Positions 19,160 to 49,640 of a stretch of DNA of 64,000 nt are shown here, one piece after another. A program made the position numbers and the translations under genes. The notes under the pieces were generated by a model that was given only the letters and a program-made list of their open reading frames with translations, had not been told where the DNA came from and ran no database searches. Origin of the DNA: Bacillota bacterium (GTDB lineage Bacteria > Bacillota > Dethiobacteria > Dethiobacterales > Dethiobacteraceae). Numbering within the stretch: the stretch's first letter is position 1; every line of letters starts with the position of its first letter. The stretch is taken from positions 1-64,000 of the forward strand of contig JAAYMK010000124.1 of NCBI GenBank assembly GCA_012521405.1, given 5' to 3'.

Positions 19160-20434
19160 TTATCGATGTTTTAAAGCTTTTTGGCCAATATCCTTCCGGT
19201 AATGGGCACCTTCAAATTTAATCAGCTTTACGGCGTTATAAGCTTTCTCTAAAGCAGCCTCCAAGGTCCCGGCCCAGGCCGTAACCCCAAGCACACGTCC
19301 TCCGGCGGTCACAAATTTTTCCTCCTGCTTTGCCGTGCCGGCATGAAACACATATGTATCTTCCAAGGCACTAACTTCATGTAAGCCTTGAATTTCTTGC
19401 CCGGTGGTATAATCCCCGGGGTAGCCGGCAGAAGCCATGACCACACAGGCAGTATGGTTATCATACCAGACAATTTCTTGCTCATGGAGCTTCCGGTTCA
19501 ATACGGAAAGCATAATCTCCACCAAGTCACTTTTGAGACGGGGCAAGACCACTTGACACTCGGGATCACCAAAACGGACATTATATTCTAAAACTTTAGG
19601 TCCGGCTTCAGTAATCATCAAACCGGCATAAAGTACACCTTGATATACTATTCCTTCTTGGCGCAAACCTCTGATGGTGGGCTTGAGAATTTCTGCTTCC
19701 ACCTGTTCCAGCAATGCCGGCGTTAAAACAGGAGCGGGTGAATAAGCACCCATACCGCCGGTATTAGGTCCTTGGTCGTGATCATATACAGCTTTATGGT
19801 CTTGGGAAGATACCATGGGGATGACAGTTTCCCCGTCAGTAAAGGCCAAAACAGAAACTTCCTCGCCCACTAAAAATTCTTCAATTACCACTTTAGCTCC
19901 GGCTTGGCCGAAAACTTTTTGCACCATAATCTGCTCCACCGCCGCCTTTGCTTCGGCAAGGGTTTGAGCCACCACCACGCCTTTACCTGCAGCCAGCCCG
20001 TCTGCTTTAACAACAATGGGAGCACCTTTTTGCTCCAGATAAGCCAAAGCCTCTTGCGGGTCAGTAAAGGTCTGGCTGTGGGCGGTAGGAATTTGATATT
20101 TTTGCATTATTTGTTTGGCAAAAGCTTTACTTGCTTCCAATTGTGCCGCCGCCCTGGTAGGTCCAAAAATAGGAAGTCCTTCCGCTTGAAAAGCATCAAC
20201 AATCCCTGCGGCCAGCGGAGCTTCCGGCCCTACCACGGTTAGCCCGATCTCATGCTCCCGGGCAAATTCCACAAGCTTGTCTATCTTTGCAACCGGTATG
20301 TCAATACACTGGGCAATTTGCGCAATACCGGCATTGCCCGGTGCGCAATATACCTTTTGCACACGGGGGCTTTGCCGCAATTTCCAGACCAGGGTATGTT
20401 CCCGCCCCCCGCTGCCAATCACAAGTACACGCAT
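19160..20434 (-). CDS. purD: phosphoribosylamine-glycine ligase PurD
   Basis: A 424-residue ATP-grasp enzyme that joins glycine to phosphoribosylamine, step 2 of de novo purine synthesis. It starts with MRVLVIGSGGREH, and has KADGLAAGKGV in the ATP-grasp domain, SQDHKAVYDHDQGPNTGGMG, and EYNVRFGDPE metal-binding residues. AGGAGG precedes the ATG. It is the last gene of the purE-F-M-N-H-D unit, 15 bases after purH. Confidence 0.98.
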   Translation of the reverse strand: MRVLVIGSGGREHTLVWKLRQSPRVQKVYCAPGNAGIAQIAQCIDIPVAKIDKLVEFAREHEIGLTVVGPEAPLAAGIVDAFQAEGLPIFGPTRAAAQLEASKAFAKQIMQKYQIPTAHSQTFTDPQEALAYLEQKGAPIVVKADGLAAGKGVVVAQTLAEAKAAVEQIMVQKVFGQAGAKVVIEEFLVGEEVSVLAFTDGETVIPMVSSQDHKAVYDHDQGPNTGGMGAYSPAPVLTPALLEQVEAEILKPTIRGLRQEGIVYQGVLYAGLMITEAGPKVLEYNVRFGDPECQVVLPRLKSDLVEIMLSVLNRKLHEQEIVWYDNHTACVVMASAGYPGDYTTGQEIQGLHEVSALEDTYVFHAGTAKQEEKFVTAGGRVLGVTAWAGTLEAALEKAYNAVKLIKFEGAHYRKDIGQKALKHR

Positions 20435-20449: not shown

Positions 20450-21985
20450 TTAATGTTTGAAATAACGGGTACCGGTCACCACCATGACCAAGCCCTGCTC
20501 ATCACAAGCAGCAATGGCATCCTGATCGTTGACAGAACCTCCGGGCTGGACAATTGCTTTTACACCGGCTGCCGCCGCCGCATCCACGGTATCACGGAAC
20601 GGGAAAAATGCATCTGAGGCCATAATACTACCAACGGCCTTTTCCCCGGCTTGTTCAATGGCAATTTTGGCCGCACCAACCCGGTTCATCTGACCGGCAC
20701 CAATGCCAATGGTCTGCCCGGCTTTCACCAGCACAATGGCATTTGATTTCACATGTTTTACTACTTTCATGCCAAAAACCATATCGGCCAGCTGCTCTGG
20801 CGTCGGTTTTTGCCTGGTGACTGTTTCCCAGTTGTTGGGCTCCACGGCAGCCGTATCCACCGTCTGCATTAAAAGCCCACCGGAAACTTTTTTCACATCA
20901 AATTTGTCCCTCACTGCTGTCAACGGTGCCTCCAGGAGGCGAATATTTTTCTTGCGGGTTAATATAGTTAAAGCTTCCTCTGTGAAACCGGGGGCAATGA
21001 TAACTTCTAAAAAGATCTCACTCATCTTTGCTGCCGTTTCTTTATCTACTTCCCGGTTTACCGCCACAATCCCGCCAAAGATGGAAACAGGGTCGGCTTC
21101 ATACGCCCGCCGATAGGCAGTAAAAAGATCTTTGCCAATGGCTACACCACATGGGTTTGTATGCTTCACTGCCACCGCCGCCGGTTTGCTAAATTCCTGC
21201 ACAATTTCCCATGCGGCGTTGACATCATTTAAATTGTTAAAGGACAATTCACGGCCGTGCAGTTGTTTGGCACGGGCAATGGAACCCGGTGCCGCTTGTG
21301 CTTCTTGATAAAAAGCAGCTTTTTGTTGCGGATTTTCTCCGTAACGCAATTCCTGCACTTTCGTAAAAGACAGCACCAGTTTCTCGGGGAAGTTTTCCGC
21401 ATCTATTTTTTGCCAGAGCCAATTGGCAATCATGGCATCATATGCTGCTGTGTGTCTAAAGGCTTCCGCCGCTAAAGTAAAACGTGTTTTTTCACTTAAA
21501 CTGCCCTTTTCCTGCATTTCTTTTAAGATTTCACCATACCGCTTTGGATTTACCACCACCGCCACATGGGCAAAATTTTTGGCGGCAGCTCGTACCATGG
21601 CAGGTCCGCCAATATCTATATTTTCAATGGCTTCTTCCAGGGTGACATCCGGTTTTGCCACCGTTTGCGCAAAAGGGTAAAGGTTAACGGCCACCAGCTC
21701 AATGGACGGGATTTGGTGTTCCTGCATTTGTCTTTGATGTTCCGGCAGGTCCCGGCGTGCCAAAATACCGCCATGGATTTTAGGATGAAGCGTTTTTACC
21801 CGCCCATCCAAAATCTCCGGGAAACCGGTAAGACAGGACACACTTTGGACGGGAATTTGTGCCTCCTCCAGCACTTTTTTTGTCCCGCCGGTGGAAATAA
21901 TGGTAAAGCCAAGGTCAATTAAACCGCGGGCAAAATCCACAATCCCGGTTTTCTCAGAAACGCTTAACAGCGCCAGCTTATTCAT
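20450..21985 (-). CDS. purH: bifunctional AICAR transformylase / IMP cyclohydrolase PurH
   Basis: A 511-residue enzyme for the last two steps to IMP. The N-terminal MGS-like cyclohydrolase (SVSEKTGIVDFARGL, STGGTKKVL) is followed by the transformylase domain with VKHTNPCG and AFFPFRDTVD. The ATG at 21985 is preferred over an in-frame TTG at 21988. It overlaps the purN stop by 8 bases, so translation is coupled. Confidence 0.97.
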   Translation of the reverse strand: MNKLALLSVSEKTGIVDFARGLIDLGFTIISTGGTKKVLEEAQIPVQSVSCLTGFPEILDGRVKTLHPKIHGGILARRDLPEHQRQMQEHQIPSIELVAVNLYPFAQTVAKPDVTLEEAIENIDIGGPAMVRAAAKNFAHVAVVVNPKRYGEILKEMQEKGSLSEKTRFTLAAEAFRHTAAYDAMIANWLWQKIDAENFPEKLVLSFTKVQELRYGENPQQKAAFYQEAQAAPGSIARAKQLHGRELSFNNLNDVNAAWEIVQEFSKPAAVAVKHTNPCGVAIGKDLFTAYRRAYEADPVSIFGGIVAVNREVDKETAAKMSEIFLEVIIAPGFTEEALTILTRKKNIRLLEAPLTAVRDKFDVKKVSGGLLMQTVDTAAVEPNNWETVTRQKPTPEQLADMVFGMKVVKHVKSNAIVLVKAGQTIGIGAGQMNRVGAAKIAIEQAGEKAVGSIMASDAFFPFRDTVDAAAAAGVKAIVQPGGSVNDQDAIAACDEQGLVMVVTGTRYFKH

Positions 21986-22586
21986 CAATAAAGCACCTTC
22001 TTCCCTGTATTGTTATTTTACCGCGCACCCAAAGATCAATGGCTTTGGGGTACAGGCGGTGCTCAATTTTTTGTATCCGCTCCCGCAAACTTTCCACTGT
22101 ATCGTCATCCCGTACCGTCACGGCTTCCTGCAAAATAATGGGTCCTGTATCCATCCCCTCATCCACAAAATGGACTGTGCAGCCGGTGACTTTTACCCCG
22201 TAGTCAAGGGCAGCGGCAATCCCCTTGGTGCCGGGAAATGCCGGCAGTAAAGCGGGATGAATATTCATGATCCTGTTTTTGTAAGCTTCCACAAATTCAG
22301 GAGAAACCAAACGCATATAACCGGCCAGGACCACCAAATCAATTTTATGCTCCTGTAAATAAGCCACAAGGGCACGGTCATATTCCTGCCGTGAAGCATA
22401 AAGTTGGGGATCAAAAAATTTATTTTTAATACCGTGTTTTTTCGCCCGGGTTAAGGCATAAGCATCTTTTTTATCGCTCAGAACCAGCACCACTTCTGCG
22501 CCACAAATTTTTTTACTTTCCACCGCATCAATAATAGCTTGCAAATTAGTACCGTTACCTGAAGCCAGAACGGCTATACGTTTCAT
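21978..22586 (-). CDS. purN: phosphoribosylglycinamide formyltransferase PurN
   Basis: A 202-residue 10-formyl-THF-dependent transformylase, step 3 of the pathway. It has the N-terminal VLASGNGTNLQAI phosphate loop, the catalytic NIHPALLPAFPG with the essential Asn and His, and the GCTVHFVDEGMDTGPII aspartate motif, here in two pieces VHFVDEG and DTGPII. GAGGAA precedes the ATG. It overlaps purH. Confidence 0.97.
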   Translation of the reverse strand: MKRIAVLASGNGTNLQAIIDAVESKKICGAEVVLVLSDKKDAYALTRAKKHGIKNKFFDPQLYASRQEYDRALVAYLQEHKIDLVVLAGYMRLVSPEFVEAYKNRIMNIHPALLPAFPGTKGIAAALDYGVKVTGCTVHFVDEGMDTGPIILQEAVTVRDDDTVESLRERIQKIEHRLYPKAIDLWVRGKITIQGRRCFIDE

Positions 22587-22607: not shown

Positions 22608-23630
22608 CTATTTAAAAGTTACGCCGCTGCCGCTCACCACTTCACCAAGCAAATAGGGAGTTTCCCCTAAACTTTGCAATAAAGTTACCGCTTTGTCAGC
22701 AGCATCCGGCCTAACCACCAGCACAAAACCAATCCCCATATTAAAAGTCCTGTACATTTCTTGTCTTTCTATTGCCCCCAGCTTTTCCAGCACTTGAAAG
22801 ACAGGCGGCACCGTCCAGGCTTTAGTCTCAATTACCGCCCCCAAACCTTGCGGCAGGCAACGGGGTACATTTTCCACCAGTCCGCCCCCTGTAATATGGG
22901 CCATACCGTTGATTTGCACTTCCTGTAATAATGACAAGATTCCTTTGACGTAAATTCGCGTCGGTGTAAGCAGTTCCTCGCCCAAGGTCTTGCCAAATTC
23001 AGCAATATAAGCGTCCGGCTTCCAATTGGCTTTATGGAAAAATACTTTCCGTGCCAGGGAAAAACCGTTACTATGCAGCCCCGAAGCAGCCAGCCCAATG
23101 AGCACATCTTTTTCCTGCACCTTGCTGCCGTCAATAAGTTGACTGCGTTCAACCACCCCCACGGCAAATCCGGCTAGATCATACTCGCCTTCTGCATAAA
23201 AACCCGGCATTTCCGCCGTCTCGCCGCCAATTAAAGCACAGCCGGCCAGGCGGCAACCGGCGGCAACACCGCTAATAATTTCTGCCACCTGTTCCGGGTT
23301 CAATTTCCCCACGGCTAAATAATCCAGGAAAAAGAGCGGCTCCGCTCCCTGTACCACAATATCGTTTACACACATGGCCACTGCATCTTGGCCAATAGTA
23401 TCGTGCCTGTCCAGCAGAAAGGCAATTTTTAGTTTAGTACCTACACCGTCCGTCCCGGAAACTAAAACCGGCTCCTTGTACGTTGTATTCAAGGCAAACA
23501 AACCGCCGAAGCCACCGATGTCAGTTAAAACTTCTGGCCGCATAGTGGAACGGACATGCTTTTTCATCAGCTCCACAGCTTGATTGCCGGCATCAATATC
23601 AACCCCGGCATCTTTATAGGTATACGCCAA
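22608..23630 (-). CDS. purM: phosphoribosylformylglycinamidine cyclo-ligase PurM
   Basis: A 340-residue AIR synthetase of the PurM/SelD/HypE superfamily. Visible are [12 protein letters not shown] at the N-terminus, [10 protein letters not shown], the [18 protein letters not shown] core and [13 protein letters not shown]. The only usable start is TTG at 23630 with GGGAG 9 bases upstream, since a stop lies three codons before it. It lies between purF and purN. Confidence 0.97.
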
Positions 23631-23651: not shown

Positions 23652-25064
23652 TTATTTATCATATGGGCACTCCTCAGTGCACACAACCGGATAGCGCCCG
23701 TTAAAACAGGCGGTACAAAATTCTTCTTTAGGCAGGTTTAAACATTCTAGCATCCCGTCTTCACTTAAAAAGCCCAAAGAATCGGCGCCGATTTCCCTGG
23801 CAATTTCTTTAGTTTCTAAACGTGCACCGATTAATTCCTGCGATGTGGCCGTATGCACTCCATAATAACAGGGAGAGATGACAGGTGGTGAAGTAATTAA
23901 AACATGTACTTCTTTGGCGCCGGCTTGCCGCAACATATGCACTATCCGTTTGGATGTCGTTCCCCGGACAATGGAATCATCCACCATGACCACACGTTTG
24001 CCCGCCACAATCTGCCTGACCGGGTTGAGTTTTAGTTGTACACCCAGCGCCCTCAATTCCGGCGAAGGTTGAATAAAAGTACGGCCAATATAGCGATTTT
24101 TCACAAAACCCATTTCGTAGGGCAAGCCTAACTGTTCAGCCACACCGGAGGCGGCGGAAAGTGAAGAATCGGGAACGCCAGTAACAATATCGGCATCCAC
24201 AGGATGTTCCTGCGCCAAGCGCCGGCCGAGGCGCTTGCGTACCATATGCACATTTTGCCCCAACAAATTGCTGTCCGGACGGGCAAAGTAAATATATTCA
24301 AAGACACACATGGCCTGTTTTTCCGTTTCTGCATACTGAAGAGATTGCGGGCCGTTTTTGTCAATGACAACCATTTCCCCGGGCTTAACGTCGCGAATAA
24401 ACTGGGCGCCCACCGTATCAAAGGCGCATGTTTCCGAGGCCAGGACAAAACCTGCTGCCGTTTCCCCCAAAGACAGCGGTCTGATACCATGGGCATCCCG
24501 TATGGCAATTAATTTGTCCGGTGTCATAATGAGAAACGTAAAAGCACCTTTGAGCCGTGGCAATACTTTTTGCAAGGCGGCCACAATCTCACTTTCCCCT
24601 GACCGGGCGATAAGGTGGGCAAGAATTTCGCAGTCTGTGGTAGTTTGAAAAATAGATCCTTCCCTTTCCAGTTGCATGCGCAATTTCCGGCCGTTTACCA
24701 GGTTTCCGTTGTAGACAATGGCAGGGGAACCGCCATAATAGCGGACAATTAATGGTTGCGCATTGACCGGAGAGGTAGAACCGGTGCCGGAATAGCGCAC
24801 ATGGCCCACGGCAATATGTCCCTGTAGTTCCTGCAGTTTAGTCGTCTCGGCAAAAACATCAGAAACCAGCCCGATACCTTTTTCCCCTTTAATATCCCTG
24901 CCGTTAGCCACGGCAATACCCGCACTTTCCTGTCCGCGATGCTGGAGAGCATAAAGCCCATAATAAGTAAGTTGGGCCACATCACTACCCGGTGAATAAA
25001 TGCCGAAAACTCCGCACTCTTCTTTCATTTTGTCTTCAGGCAAATTTATAAGTTCAGCCGCCAT
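23652..25064 (-). CDS. purF: amidophosphoribosyltransferase PurF
   Basis: A 470-residue enzyme that makes phosphoribosylamine from PRPP and glutamine, the committed step. After a short propeptide (MKEE) the N-terminal glutaminase begins with the nucleophile in CGVFGIY. The PRPP-binding loop is VVMVDDSIVRGTT. Four cysteines for the structural [4Fe-4S] cluster of Bacillus-type PurF are present, including CLNLPKEEFCTACF near the C-terminus. The ATG at 25064 has GGGAGG upstream, preferred over a start 13 codons earlier. The use of PRPP as substrate fits control by a PRPP-type riboswitch. Confidence 0.97.
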   Translation of the reverse strand: MAAELINLPEDKMKEECGVFGIYSPGSDVAQLTYYGLYALQHRGQESAGIAVANGRDIKGEKGIGLVSDVFAETTKLQELQGHIAVGHVRYSGTGSTSPVNAQPLIVRYYGGSPAIVYNGNLVNGRKLRMQLEREGSIFQTTTDCEILAHLIARSGESEIVAALQKVLPRLKGAFTFLIMTPDKLIAIRDAHGIRPLSLGETAAGFVLASETCAFDTVGAQFIRDVKPGEMVVIDKNGPQSLQYAETEKQAMCVFEYIYFARPDSNLLGQNVHMVRKRLGRRLAQEHPVDADIVTGVPDSSLSAASGVAEQLGLPYEMGFVKNRYIGRTFIQPSPELRALGVQLKLNPVRQIVAGKRVVMVDDSIVRGTTSKRIVHMLRQAGAKEVHVLITSPPVISPCYYGVHTATSQELIGARLETKEIAREIGADSLGFLSEDGMLECLNLPKEEFCTACFNGRYPVVCTEECPYDK

Positions 25065-25134
25065 GATACTGCCTCCCAGTAAGTTAGTTTCCTCCCTACA
25101 CATCTCCTGCGCTTGCAGGTATTTTTTGCGAAAA

Positions 25135-25662
25135 CTATTTTTTCTGTTCCGCCAAGTATTGCCGCCAACCGCTTTTCGCCAATTTTTCTGCCTTTGCCAT
25201 CACTTGTTTAGCCATCTCTTCTTTATAGGCCACCATTTTGCAGCGCAGATTTTCATCCTTCACACTTAAAATTTGTACCGCCAAGAGTCCTGCATTTTTT
25301 GCTCCGTTGATGGACACGGTAGCCACAGGCACACCTGAAGGCATTTGCACCATTGAATATAATGAATCGGCACCGCCGAGAGTTTTCGTCAAAATAGGTA
25401 CGCCAATCACCGGTAGCTCGGTATAAGCGGCAACCACACCGGCCAGATGCGCCGCCCCGCCGGCACCGGCAATAATTACTTTCATCCCACGGGCTGAAGC
25501 ATTCCTGGCAAATTCCTCCACTTTAGCCGGTGTACGATGGGCAGACATGACAGCCATTTCGTAAGGAACGCCAAATTCCTCCAAAATTTCCGCAGCGGCG
25601 CTCATAACGGCCAGATCTGAATCACTGCCCATAATAATTCCCACTAAAGCATTATTTTCCAT
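25135..25662 (-). CDS. purE: N5-carboxyaminoimidazole ribonucleotide mutase PurE
   Basis: A 175-residue class I PurE with the GSDSDLAVM phosphate loop, SAHRTP and the [16 protein letters not shown] motif. It heads the purine cluster. PurK, purC, purB and purSQL are absent from this cluster and must lie elsewhere. It is separated from the permease by a 150-base gap with a hairpin, so it may be read partly through from the riboswitch promoter. Confidence 0.96.
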
Positions 25663-25814: not shown

Positions 25815-27101
25815 TTAGAGCAGATAAAAAGCCAATGACACCACAAAGAGAACGTACGCAAACCAATGCACTTCCTTGGCACGGCCGGAAGCCAATTTAA
25901 CAATGGGATAAGTAATAAACCCGGCGGCAATTCCATGTGCAATGGAATAGGTTAGCGGCATGGCAATAATGGTCATGAAAGCCGGAAATGCTTCCGTAAA
26001 ATCATTAAAATCTATATCCATAACTGCCCCCAGCATTAAAACCCCTACAATCACCAAAGCGGGAGCAGTAGCTGCACTGGGTACAAGGGTTGCCAGCGGG
26101 GTAAAGAAAAGTGCCAGGAGGAATAAAACCCCAGTTGTAACCGCGGTTAGTCCTGTCCGTCCGCCTTCAGAAACACCGGCACTGGATTCCACATAGGTGG
26201 TAACAGTACTGGTACCAAGCAGCGCTCCCAACATGGTACCGATGGCATCAACCGTCATGGCACCTTTGATTCTGGGCAGGCGACCGTCTTTATCAAGGAA
26301 GCCGGCACGGGCGCTTGTTCCCATTAAAGTGCCTAAAGTATCAAACATATCGACAAAAAGCAGGGAAAAAATCACCATGAAGCCCAGTCTAATGGCGCCC
26401 GGGAAATCAAGTTTTAAAAAGATCGGGGACAAACTGGCGGGAGGTCCCACAATCTCGCCTATGGACTGCGGCACTTGTGTCACACCCACAAACATGCCAA
26501 TAATTGTTGTAATCAGAATCCCGATTAAAATGGCACCCTTTACTTTTAAAGCCATGAGCACAGCCATAATCAGCAGGCCAATTAAAGCTAAAGCCGGTGT
26601 AGTTTCTTTAATATTACCCAAAGCTACAGTCGTGGCCGGATCGCCGACAATAATTCCCACATTCGTCAGGCCGATTAAAGCAATAAATAAACCAATACCG
26701 GCCGCAACAGCCCTCTTTAAACTGGTAGGCAAAGCTTTATCGATTTCCTCCACAATACCAAAAATAGACAGGAGGAAAAAGACAATACCGGAAATAAGCA
26801 CGGCTCCCAAAGCAGCCTGCCAGCCGTATTGGGGCGCAACGGTAAAGGCGAAATACGCATTTAACCCCATACCCGAAGCCAAAGCAAAAGGATAATTGGT
26901 GACAAGTCCCATTAAGATTGTGGTAATGGCTGCAGATAAAATTGTTGCGGTGGCCACGGCAGGCTTGTCCATCCCGGTGGTACCGAGAATATCAGGGTTA
27001 ACAAAAATAATATAGGCCATGGTCATGAATGTTGTAATACCTGCTACAATTTCCGTTCTTACATTGGTGTTGTTTTCCTTCAGTTTAAAAAACTTTTCCA
27101 T
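25815..27101 (-). CDS. pbuG: NCS2 purine permease, PbuG/PbuO type
   Basis: A 428-residue membrane transporter with about 12-14 helices. It begins MEKFFKLKENNTNVRTE, a hallmark of the AzgA/PbuG branch, and has GITTFMTMAYI, ASGMGLNAYFAF and SAGVSEGGRTGLTAV, given here as short pieces. This branch imports hypoxanthine, guanine or adenine by proton symport. AAGGAGG precedes the ATG. It is the first gene after the tandem riboswitch, which fits control by guanine. Confidence 0.93.
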   Translation of the reverse strand: MEKFFKLKENNTNVRTEIVAGITTFMTMAYIIFVNPDILGTTGMDKPAVATATILSAAITTILMGLVTNYPFALASGMGLNAYFAFTVAPQYGWQAALGAVLISGIVFFLLSIFGIVEEIDKALPTSLKRAVAAGIGLFIALIGLTNVGIIVGDPATTVALGNIKETTPALALIGLLIMAVLMALKVKGAILIGILITTIIGMFVGVTQVPQSIGEIVGPPASLSPIFLKLDFPGAIRLGFMVIFSLLFVDMFDTLGTLMGTSARAGFLDKDGRLPRIKGAMTVDAIGTMLGALLGTSTVTTYVESSAGVSEGGRTGLTAVTTGVLFLLALFFTPLATLVPSAATAPALVIVGVLMLGAVMDIDFNDFTEAFPAFMTIIAMPLTYSIAHGIAAGFITYPIVKLASGRAKEVHWFAYVLFVVSLAFYLL

Positions 27102-27239: not shown

Positions 27240-27292
27240 AAAAAGCAGCCCAGACGAGTAGGTCAAATGAGCGAAACCTACCCGTCTGGGCT
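27240..27292 (-). terminator. riboswitch expression platform (intrinsic terminator)
   Basis: A 17-bp stem (27276-27292/27247-27263) with a single G-U pair, followed on the minus strand by GCTTTTT. Its 5' arm overlaps the AAAAGCCC end of the ykkC-type aptamer, so ligand binding to that aptamer would prevent termination. Confidence 0.88.
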
Positions 27293-27372
27293 TTTATCCC
27301 TTCGGTGTAGCACATAAAGTGCCTGTGCCACTTGGACCAGCCCGCTTACGCGGCGGAACCCTAGGCACACTT
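27286..27372 (-). promoter_or_regulatory. ykkC-family riboswitch aptamer, probably the PRPP subtype
   Basis: The minus strand shows the hallmark ykkC blocks in order: CTAGGGTTCCG, GGCTGGTCC, and ACACCGAAGGGATAAAAGCCC split as ACACCGAAGGG and ATAAAAGCCC. Subtypes of this fold sense guanidine, ppGpp, PRPP or nucleoside diphosphates. PRPP is preferred because it controls purine genes and sits directly after a guanine aptamer, an arrangement reported for PRPP riboswitches. Sequence alone does not prove the subtype. Confidence 0.85.
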
Positions 27373-27375
27373 TCA

Positions 27376-27442
27376 CCCGTAGTCAGATAATTTACGGTTA
27401 TCTGGTAGAGACTTTCAGGCCATATTCCTGAAATTATACGAG
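27376..27442 (-). promoter_or_regulatory. guanine riboswitch aptamer
   Basis: The minus strand carries the canonical three-way junction: CGTATAAT, ATATGGCC, GTCTCTACC, ACCGTAAAT and CTGACTACG. Stem P1 is 27442-27437/27381-27376. The nucleotide pairing with the ligand is C (GACTACG), which specifies guanine rather than adenine. No terminator separates it from the next aptamer. Confidence 0.93.
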
Positions 27443-27459
27443 TTATTTAATTCACCATT

Positions 27460-27488
27460 AGCTTATCAGATTTGACAAAGCCTGTCAA
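27460..27488 (-). promoter_or_regulatory. promoter of the riboswitch-pbuG transcript
   Basis: A perfect TTGACA (27488-27483), a 17-base spacer and an extended -10 (TGA TAAGCT, 27465-27460). Transcription would start about 12 bases before the guanine aptamer. Confidence 0.62.
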
Positions 27489-31397: not shown

Positions 31398-32936
31398 TTA
31401 CTCCCATTCAATGGTGGCCGGCGGTTTAGGGGTAATATCGTACACCACGCGGTTGACATGGGGTACCTCGGTAACGATGCGGTGAGTAATTTTCTCCAGC
31501 ACTTCATAAGGAAAACGATACCAATCGGCCGTCATCCCGTCCTGGCCGGTGACGGCACGCAAAGCAATGGTATAAGCGTATGTGCGCTTACCGTCAAAAA
31601 CACCTACGGAGCGGATATCGGGCAGGACGGCAAAAGCTTGCCAGATTTTGCGGTAGAGGCCCGCTTTTTTAATTTCTTCAATCATAATGGCATCGGCCGC
31701 CCGCAAGATTTTCAATTTTTCCTCTGTGACCTCACCTAAAACCCGTATGGCAAGACCGGGACCCGGGAAAGGATGGCGCCAAACAATATCCTCAGGTAAG
31801 TTTAAGGCTGCTCCAACCTGGCGTACCTCATCTTTAAATAAAGTATTGAGCGGTTCAATAAGTTTAAATTTCATGTCTTTAGGCAGGCCGCCCACATTAT
31901 GGTGTGATTTAATGACAGCAGTTGTTTCTGTTCCGCTCTCAACAATATCGGGATAAACCGTTCCTTGTACCAAGTAATCAATTTTACCGATTTTAGCCGC
32001 TTCCCTTTCAAAAACACGAATAAATTCAGTGCCGATAATTTTACGCTTTTGCTCCGGATCGGTCACACCTTTAAGTTTATGCAAAAACTCTGCCGCCGCA
32101 TCTACCTTGATTACTTTCATTTTTAAATTTTCCTGAAAAGTGGCCATGACCTGCCGGGCTTCATCCTGGCGTAAAAGTCCATGATCAACAAAAATACAGG
32201 TTAAACCATCGCCGATGGCTTTATGTACCAAAGCGGCGGCCACGGAACTATCTACGCCACCGGAAAGGCCGCACACCACTTGTTCATTTTCTCCCACGGC
32301 TTCCCGGATTCTTTGCACGGTATTTTCAATAAACACATCAATGTTCCAGTCCCCGGTCAATCCTGCAATTTTAAACAAGAAGTTTGCCAAAACTTTTGTC
32401 CCTGCAGGTGTTTCTAAAGCCTGTGGGTGGCAGGAAACGGCATAAAACTTCCGCTCCAAATGGGCCATGGCTGCCACAGGCATCATTTCTGTCGCCGCCA
32501 AAACTGTAAAACCCTCAGGTACTTTTTCCACCACCTTGCCCTGTTCCGGCAAGAGCAGAATTTCTTTTGCCAAACCGGCAAAAAGGTCATTTTCTTTTAA
32601 TACCGTCATTTTTATCTTTTTGCCGGGATCATGCTCACCCGGGCGGATAGTGCCGCCCAAATCCTTTGCCATCACCTGCACGCCGGCACCGAGAGCTAAA
32701 ATGGGCAGTCCCAGCCGGTAGGCTTCAGGAGCTGCCGCCGGTGCTGTCTCTTTGTAAACCTCCTGTGAATCACCGGTAAAAATTAAAGCTTTAGGATGGC
32801 GTTCTTTAATTTTTTCCCAAGGGGTTTTATATGGTAAAATCTCACAATAAACGTGTAATTGCCTGATTTTACGGGCAATTAACTGGGTATACTGTCCACC
32901 GAAATCAAGGACAACCACCAATTCCTGCTGCGCCAT
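31398..32936 (-). CDS. guaA: GMP synthase with degenerate glutaminase domain
   Basis: A 512-residue GuaA that aminates XMP to GMP. The ATP pyrophosphatase half is intact (CGLSGGVDSSVAA, FVDHGLLR, HPFPGPGLAIR, and the dimerisation end PPATIEWE). The N-terminal class I glutamine amidotransferase half has lost key residues. Where active enzymes have CYGMQ it reads GAGVQ, so the nucleophilic Cys is Gly83. The His (170) remains but the triad Glu is Gln172 (CHPQ for HPE). The oxyanion-strand FSGGP-type motif is FTGDS. The domain still has full length, so ammonia-dependent synthesis is likely. The ATG at 32936 has GGAGGTG upstream. Confidence 0.92.
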   Translation of the reverse strand: MAQQELVVVLDFGGQYTQLIARKIRQLHVYCEILPYKTPWEKIKERHPKALIFTGDSQEVYKETAPAAAPEAYRLGLPILALGAGVQVMAKDLGGTIRPGEHDPGKKIKMTVLKENDLFAGLAKEILLLPEQGKVVEKVPEGFTVLAATEMMPVAAMAHLERKFYAVSCHPQALETPAGTKVLANFLFKIAGLTGDWNIDVFIENTVQRIREAVGENEQVVCGLSGGVDSSVAAALVHKAIGDGLTCIFVDHGLLRQDEARQVMATFQENLKMKVIKVDAAAEFLHKLKGVTDPEQKRKIIGTEFIRVFEREAAKIGKIDYLVQGTVYPDIVESGTETTAVIKSHHNVGGLPKDMKFKLIEPLNTLFKDEVRQVGAALNLPEDIVWRHPFPGPGLAIRVLGEVTEEKLKILRAADAIMIEEIKKAGLYRKIWQAFAVLPDIRSVGVFDGKRTYAYTIALRAVTGQDGMTADWYRFPYEVLEKITHRIVTEVPHVNRVVYDITPKPPATIEWE

Positions 32937-32991
32937 TTTCCCACCTCCAATTAAAAGGGCTAAAATTAGCATGGTGTTAAAAAATAATTTT

Positions 32992-49385: not shown

Positions 49386-49640
49386 AAAAAAAGCCTCTCT
49401 ATCCTAAAAGGACGAGAGGCATCTCGCGGTACCACCTTTATTGGTCACCAAGTGACCCACTTACGCCGTGTTTCCACACGGACAGCGCTAACGGGCATTT
49501 CCCGGCGTGGCCTACTAAGCAAAGCCGTTGGGCACGCAGTTCAGGGGTGCGCTTCAGAATGCCTTCCGTGCCGGGCTTCCACCATCCCCGACTCGCTGGA
49601 ACTTCCAACATTCCTACTCTCCCCATCATTACCTTACGAT
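49386..49640 (-). promoter_or_regulatory. arginine-specific T-box leader
   Basis: The conserved T-box AAGGTGGTACCGCG is at 49438-49425, followed by an intrinsic terminator (stem 49393-49420, seven T residues). Stem I features are present: GAGAGTA near its base, GCGAGTCGGGGATGGTG in the distal loop, and the specifier loop GAA-G-CGC-A. The specifier CGC (49551-49549) reads as arginine. Uncharged tRNA-Arg would stabilise the antiterminator and switch on argC onward. Confidence 0.95.

Follow-up and report, generated by a model that had tools for sequence, protein, structure and literature searches.

How can two aptamers placed a few bases apart govern one purine operon through a single terminator, and which ligands do they sense? 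The question is raised by a leader in the window, that is, the whole stretch of 64,000 nucleotides of Bacillota DNA analysed here. A preliminary description had read this leader as a guanine aptamer followed within a few bases by a ykkC-type aptamer, probably for PRPP, upstream of a purine permease gene and purEFMNHD. Our analysis makes it very probable that the leader is a guanine-PRPP tandem riboswitch whose two aptamers share one terminator, and that it controls a purine importer together with the greater part of de novo purine synthesis. The gene order was recovered as described, from the permease gene through purE, purF, purM, purN and purH to purD (Table 1).

Table 1. Positions of the leader elements and operon genes in the window.
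Feature	Positions	Strand	Remarks
Probable promoter	27460..27488	minus	TTGACA 27488-27483, 17 nt, TAAGCT 27465-27460
Guanine-type purine aptamer (Rfam span)	27360..27461	minus	P1 is 27443-27437 with 27381-27375
GACUA core of purine aptamer	27384-27380	minus	From the sequence
PRPP-type ykkC aptamer (subtype 2b), P0 to P0	27269..27378	minus	From RF00442, the PRPP-type model and residue numbering
Shared strand GGGUGAAA	27371..27378	minus	GGGU is the guanine P1 3' strand; the whole is the extended P0 5' strand
UUUCGCUC	27269..27276	minus	Extended P0 3' strand; occupies the top and the loop of the terminator hairpin
P3 of PRPP aptamer, GGGAUAAAAGCCC	27288..27300	minus	Its CCC is also part of the terminator 5' arm
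G96 equivalent, PRPP versus ppGpp discriminator	27286	minus	T. mathranii numbering; rule of PMC6031431
Intrinsic terminator hairpin, 17-18 bp	27247..27292	minus	Predicted -33.2 kcal/mol
Terminator U-tract UUUUU	27240..27244	minus	From the sequence
AzgA-like purine permease (PF00860)	25815..27101	minus	Nearest solved chains: adenine/guanine permeases AZG1/AZG2
purE	25135..25662	minus	
purF	23652..25103	minus	
purM	22608..23630	minus	
purN	21978..22586	minus	
purH	20450..21988	minus	
purD	19160..20434	minus	

On the minus strand, transcription would run from the probable promoter through the purine aptamer, the ykkC-fold aptamer, the terminator and a ribosome-binding site (AAGGAGG, between the terminator and the permease gene) into the permease gene. 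The -10 hexamer of the window is poor and a consensus promoter scan did not list the promoter (27488-27460); the TTGACA-17-TANNNT layout was present in 15 of the 15 tandems shown of the window's family. A TGTCGAATCTG-like motif (TGTCAAATCTG in the window) lies between the promoter hexamers and is kept across this family, and the same region (27488-27460) holds a TTGACA...TGTCAA inverted repeat, a possible operator. The guanine P1 has 7 bp and is separated by 5 nt from the P1 of the second aptamer, which starts at 27369. The terminator hairpin (27292-27247) begins inside P3 of the second aptamer and is the one terminator for both, which bears out both the close spacing and the shared terminator with an overlapping 5' arm that had been described. 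A simple terminator scan missed this hairpin since its rule takes loops of 3-8, the actual loop being 10.

The covariance-model search that had been proposed for the two aptamers was performed with Rfam and with a model of our own. RF00167 matched the first aptamer (27461-27360) with 92.9 bits, against a gathering score of 37 (E 8e-16 for the whole window). The GACUA core has C at 27382, and we take C, not U, at this ligand-pairing position to mark a guanine-type purine aptamer. The first aptamer would be a guanine riboswitch, with guanine as its probable ligand. By these Rfam models there is no other purine or ykkC aptamer in the genome, the tandem pair being the sole one. Weak Rfam matches in the stretch around the leader (Bacteroid-trp, IhtA and others) were set aside, being far under their cut-offs. 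Elsewhere in the window, a T-box leader was found on the minus strand (49405-49638, 124.7 bits).

Tandems of the same kind were sampled by a pattern scan of genome contigs (at least 119 stretches). Among the matches listed, we kept 93 distinct tandems and left out 27 matches, none of the latter entering the residue, co-variation or P0-register counts. By our own reading, the 27 comprised 11 matches due to chance (in unrelated DNA, most of it coding), 1 match starting at a contig edge, 2 without a recognisable guanine core and 13 apparently true tandems missed by the regular expression. A laxer first parse had kept 98 and dropped 21, among the matches listed.

The second aptamer was matched strongly by a single Rfam family, RF00442 (27375-27281), with 59.4 bits (E 5.6e-10 over 701 bases), which is under the gathering score of 63. 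The Rfam label Guanidine-I is not a verdict, since a separate PRPP match was not obtained from Rfam 15 for this leader. We have built a PRPP-type covariance model (R1) from 10 of 22 short tandems outside the window's family, taken from other lineages. The R1 model scored the window at 112.1 bits (E 1e-29, 27381-27265), whereas true guanidine-I controls (L169, L170, L172 and L174) reached 37.2-46.2 bits with R1 and 84-90 bits with RF00442.

Residues were numbered after the T. mathranii PRPP aptamer (PDB 6CK5, PMC6031431), carried over with zero shift to the Thermoanaerobacter-type tandems L124, L127 and L068; 16 of the 30 control loci were parsed for the residue table. The window has A5, G6, G48, U49, C75, C77, C78, G96, G101, A103, G104 and G105, in agreement with the residues or rules given in PMC6031431. 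The published PRPP-contacting residues, G96 among them, are thereby all accounted for, and A5, G6, G48, C75, C77, C78, A103, G104 and G105 are identical. It differs from T. mathranii at position 49 (U, at 27330, for C) and at position 101 (G for A), both changes being inside the stated consensus. The P0 helix formed by the 5' and 3' tails is also present, as GAAA/UUUC extendable to 8 bp.

These residues bear on two other ligands that were considered and rejected. Were the second aptamer an ordinary guanidine-I aptamer beside a guanine riboswitch, the P1-P2-P3 scaffold in common with RF00442, and the standing of this family as the only strong Rfam match, would fit. This reading is nevertheless next to impossible, since position 49 carries a pyrimidine in place of A (rule of PMC6031431), the RF00442 score lies under its gathering score, the window has extra P0 strands and an R1 score out of the reach of the controls, and the genes downstream are purine genes. 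Alternatively, the aptamer might sense ppGpp (subtype 2a), so that the leader would couple guanine to the stringent response. Subtypes 2a and 2b are alike in fold, in pyrimidine 49 and in their extended 5' and 3' ends (PMC6031431), but G96 occurs in >97% of PRPP aptamers and is absent from ppGpp aptamers (PMC6031431). The window has this G, its downstream genes are for purines and not for amino acids, and 93 of the 93 parsed guanine tandems carry G96 together with U or C at position 49, among the matches listed. We hence regard ppGpp sensing as highly improbable.

The second aptamer is PRPP-type, as had been suspected, and G96 points to PRPP rather than ppGpp as its ligand. Taken together, pyrimidine 49, G96 and the GACUA core argue, at the level of sequence, against guanidine or ppGpp binding and against a first aptamer for something other than guanine. 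Among the other loci, L184, L185, L193, L195 and L196 are ykkC subtype-2-like, with pyrimidine 49 and ACCCUAGAGGG in place of ACACCGAAGGG.

Guanine-PRPP tandems accounted for 127 of 257 PRPP aptamers in Sherlock et al. 2018 (PMC5912903), and a 2022 review counts 192 of them (PMC9481103). In the tandems of 2018, the guanine aptamer stands directly upstream of the PRPP aptamer, 5-7 nt separate the two P1 stems, the single terminator that they share overlaps the PRPP aptamer, and a purine operon follows (PMC5912903). The window fits every structural point, with no structural difference, and its tandem is another case of the class published in 2018; the likeness to a known logic-gate system proposed in the preliminary description was thus well founded. 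The first gene of the window is a permease gene, a word absent from the main text of that paper (PMC5912903). The T. wiegelii tandem (L127), from a relative of T. mathranii, also stands before a permease gene and purE. PRPP aptamers were described within Firmicutes (Sherlock et al. 2018, PMC5912903). In records of Ktedonobacterales, Ktedonobacteria or Chloroflexi (L032, L053, L083, L113 and L130), we have seen a guanine aptamer of 74.5-76 bits directly followed by a PRPP-type aptamer, the latter scoring 57-67 bits with R1.

Gene context was surveyed in 83 of the 93 listed tandems (10 with <700 nt downstream were excluded), with nine window proteins as queries. Among the matches listed, the first gene was a permease relative in 48 of the 83, the commonest context, purE in 15, purD in 4 and none of the nine queries in 16. 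Of the 31 permease-first loci with enough DNA, 25 had purE next, among the matches listed. In the window, the tandem is preceded by a URO-D-like gene, and guaA (GMP synthase, 31398-32972, minus strand) lies ~2.8 kb upstream of that gene, outside the control of the tandem. A protein layer through PurR was rejected for the window's operon, because no PurR above the cut-off was found in its genome (best 35.2 versus 258.7 bits) and no PurBox-like pairs were seen by eye before its tandem. Outside the window's family, pairs of CCGAACAAT/GTTCGG, which we take to be a PurBox-like motif, stand before many tandems (e.g., L037, L048 and L144), and a PurR layer is probably present in those lineages on account of these upstream pairs.

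How the guanine and PRPP aptamers communicate was left open by Sherlock et al. 2018 (PMC5912903). Knappenberger et al. proposed that guanine P1 and PRPP P0 are mutually exclusive, based on mfold folds of the tandem of one species, T. mathranii (PMC6031431). In the window, GGGUGAAA (27378-27371) is divided between the two helices, GGGU going to guanine P1 and GAAA to the P0 core, and it can pair along its whole length of eight bases with UUUCGCUC (27276-27269). The duplex estimates were -7.7 kcal/mol for P1, -7.2 kcal/mol for the extended P0 and +0.3 kcal/mol for the short P0 core, which indicates that closing P1 takes most of P0's strength.

Co-variation was assessed by fitting the guanine P1 3' strand to the 9 nt after GUUUC, with partners shuffled 20000 times. 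Among the matches listed (n=93), the mean fit was -3.93 kcal/mol versus -3.27 kcal/mol when shuffled, and 0 of 20000 shuffles were as low. Clustering of the matches listed at 80% identity left 34 clusters, for which 17 of 20000 shuffles were as low. At 70% identity (13 clusters) the fit was no longer significant (1497 of 20000), and the 3 clusters formed at 60% gave a reversed and uninformative result (16712 of 20000). As a control, the next 9 nt gave no fit to the P1 strand among the matches listed (5664 and 15448 of 20000).

The pairing could also be followed base by base. One register was common to 62 of the 93 tandems among the matches listed; in these 62 same-register rows, the three inner pairs of the P0 extension hold in 56, 60 and 60, the pair beside the core in 40, and the outer pairs are loose (26 for the fifth extension position, and 17). 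In the 10 model sequences from outside the family, 4 of 7 P0 pairs changed on both sides with 90% of cells paired, and the whole PRPP-type structure was 94% paired versus 26-49% when slid, these counts being made on the same alignment from which R1 was built. Both aptamers, the subtype residues, the terminator, the two alternative helices and the co-variation among relatives are what the sequence analysis itself shows.

We infer the ligands and the direction of each switch as follows. During transcription, GGGU (27378-27375) could go into guanine P1 and close it, or into the PRPP P0, which would then grow from 4 to 8 bp. Guanine binding would hold GGGU in P1 and leave P0 with GAAA/UUUC only. 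This would weaken the PRPP aptamer and release P3 along with the bases that follow it, and the 17-18 bp terminator would form and stop transcription. PRPP binding would instead lock P0 and P3, holding the terminator 5' arm AGCCCAGACGGGUAGG, and the operon would be transcribed even when guanine is present.

By analogy with B. megaterium codA, the one gate tested in vitro in PMC5912903 and read there as IMPLY, the window's gate may be OFF in a single state, when guanine is present and PRPP absent. The IMPLY reading is not assured here, since by energy alone the window defaults to termination. The terminator fold with guanine P1 was computed at -94.3 versus -68.5 kcal/mol (~26 in favour), tertiary and ligand energies not being included, and P1 is ahead of the extended P0 by 4 kcal/mol as long as the 3' arm has yet to be transcribed. 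Since this fold and P1 are favoured, the ligand-free default ON that IMPLY needs is not predicted from energy alone. The same values would suit a gate with the same parts and another logic, PRPP AND NOT guanine, with default OFF instead of default ON. Folding is kinetic, however, and the energies are without tertiary contacts, while the gate tested in vitro was read as IMPLY; we consider AND NOT rather unlikely and keep IMPLY as the presumed logic.

Both aptamers were present in 15 of 19 genomes of the window's family. In f3, a related family belonging to the same class, a ykkC-fold match was found in 31 of 43 genomes and a purine aptamer in 1 of 43. The 31 f3 loci examined, whose effective count is smaller than it looks owing to shared ancestry, have the permease gene next in 24, purE in 4 and no match in 3; five of them scored 93.7-99.8 bits with R1. 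These singlet PRPP aptamers have the same P0 strands, and permease or purE genes downstream, as in the window, but no guanine aptamer. CGAG(G/C)GAAA and a CUC tail are kept in 31 of 31 leaders, and in 23 of 31 a plain hairpin was predicted over the guanine P1 strand, covering at least 3 bases of CGAG (versus 16% in shuffles). Plain hairpins stand where guanine P1 would be in the singlets L003-L030 and L150-L166; farther upstream, f3 singlets have recurring GGCGAAAA or CAGGGAGAAAA stretches, which are unexplained.

In the simplest reading, the P0 strand would need a possible cover, for which the window's family would use a helix gated by guanine and f3 an ungated hairpin. It is possible, if doubtful, that the guanine aptamer and a plain hairpin are interchangeable "P0 blockers", the two-input gate having arisen or decayed by a swap of hairpin and aptamer at a fixed strand-exchange site. 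If true, the plain hairpin of f3 would compete for the P0 strand without a ligand, leaving a PRPP-only switch.

For the mutual exclusion of the two aptamers, which in the open-access literature was earlier proposed from one species, the sequences compared here provide comparative support from many lineages. The same genes, preceded either by a guanine aptamer or by a hairpin instead, make up a comparison set from nature, with which the strand-exchange model is directly testable.
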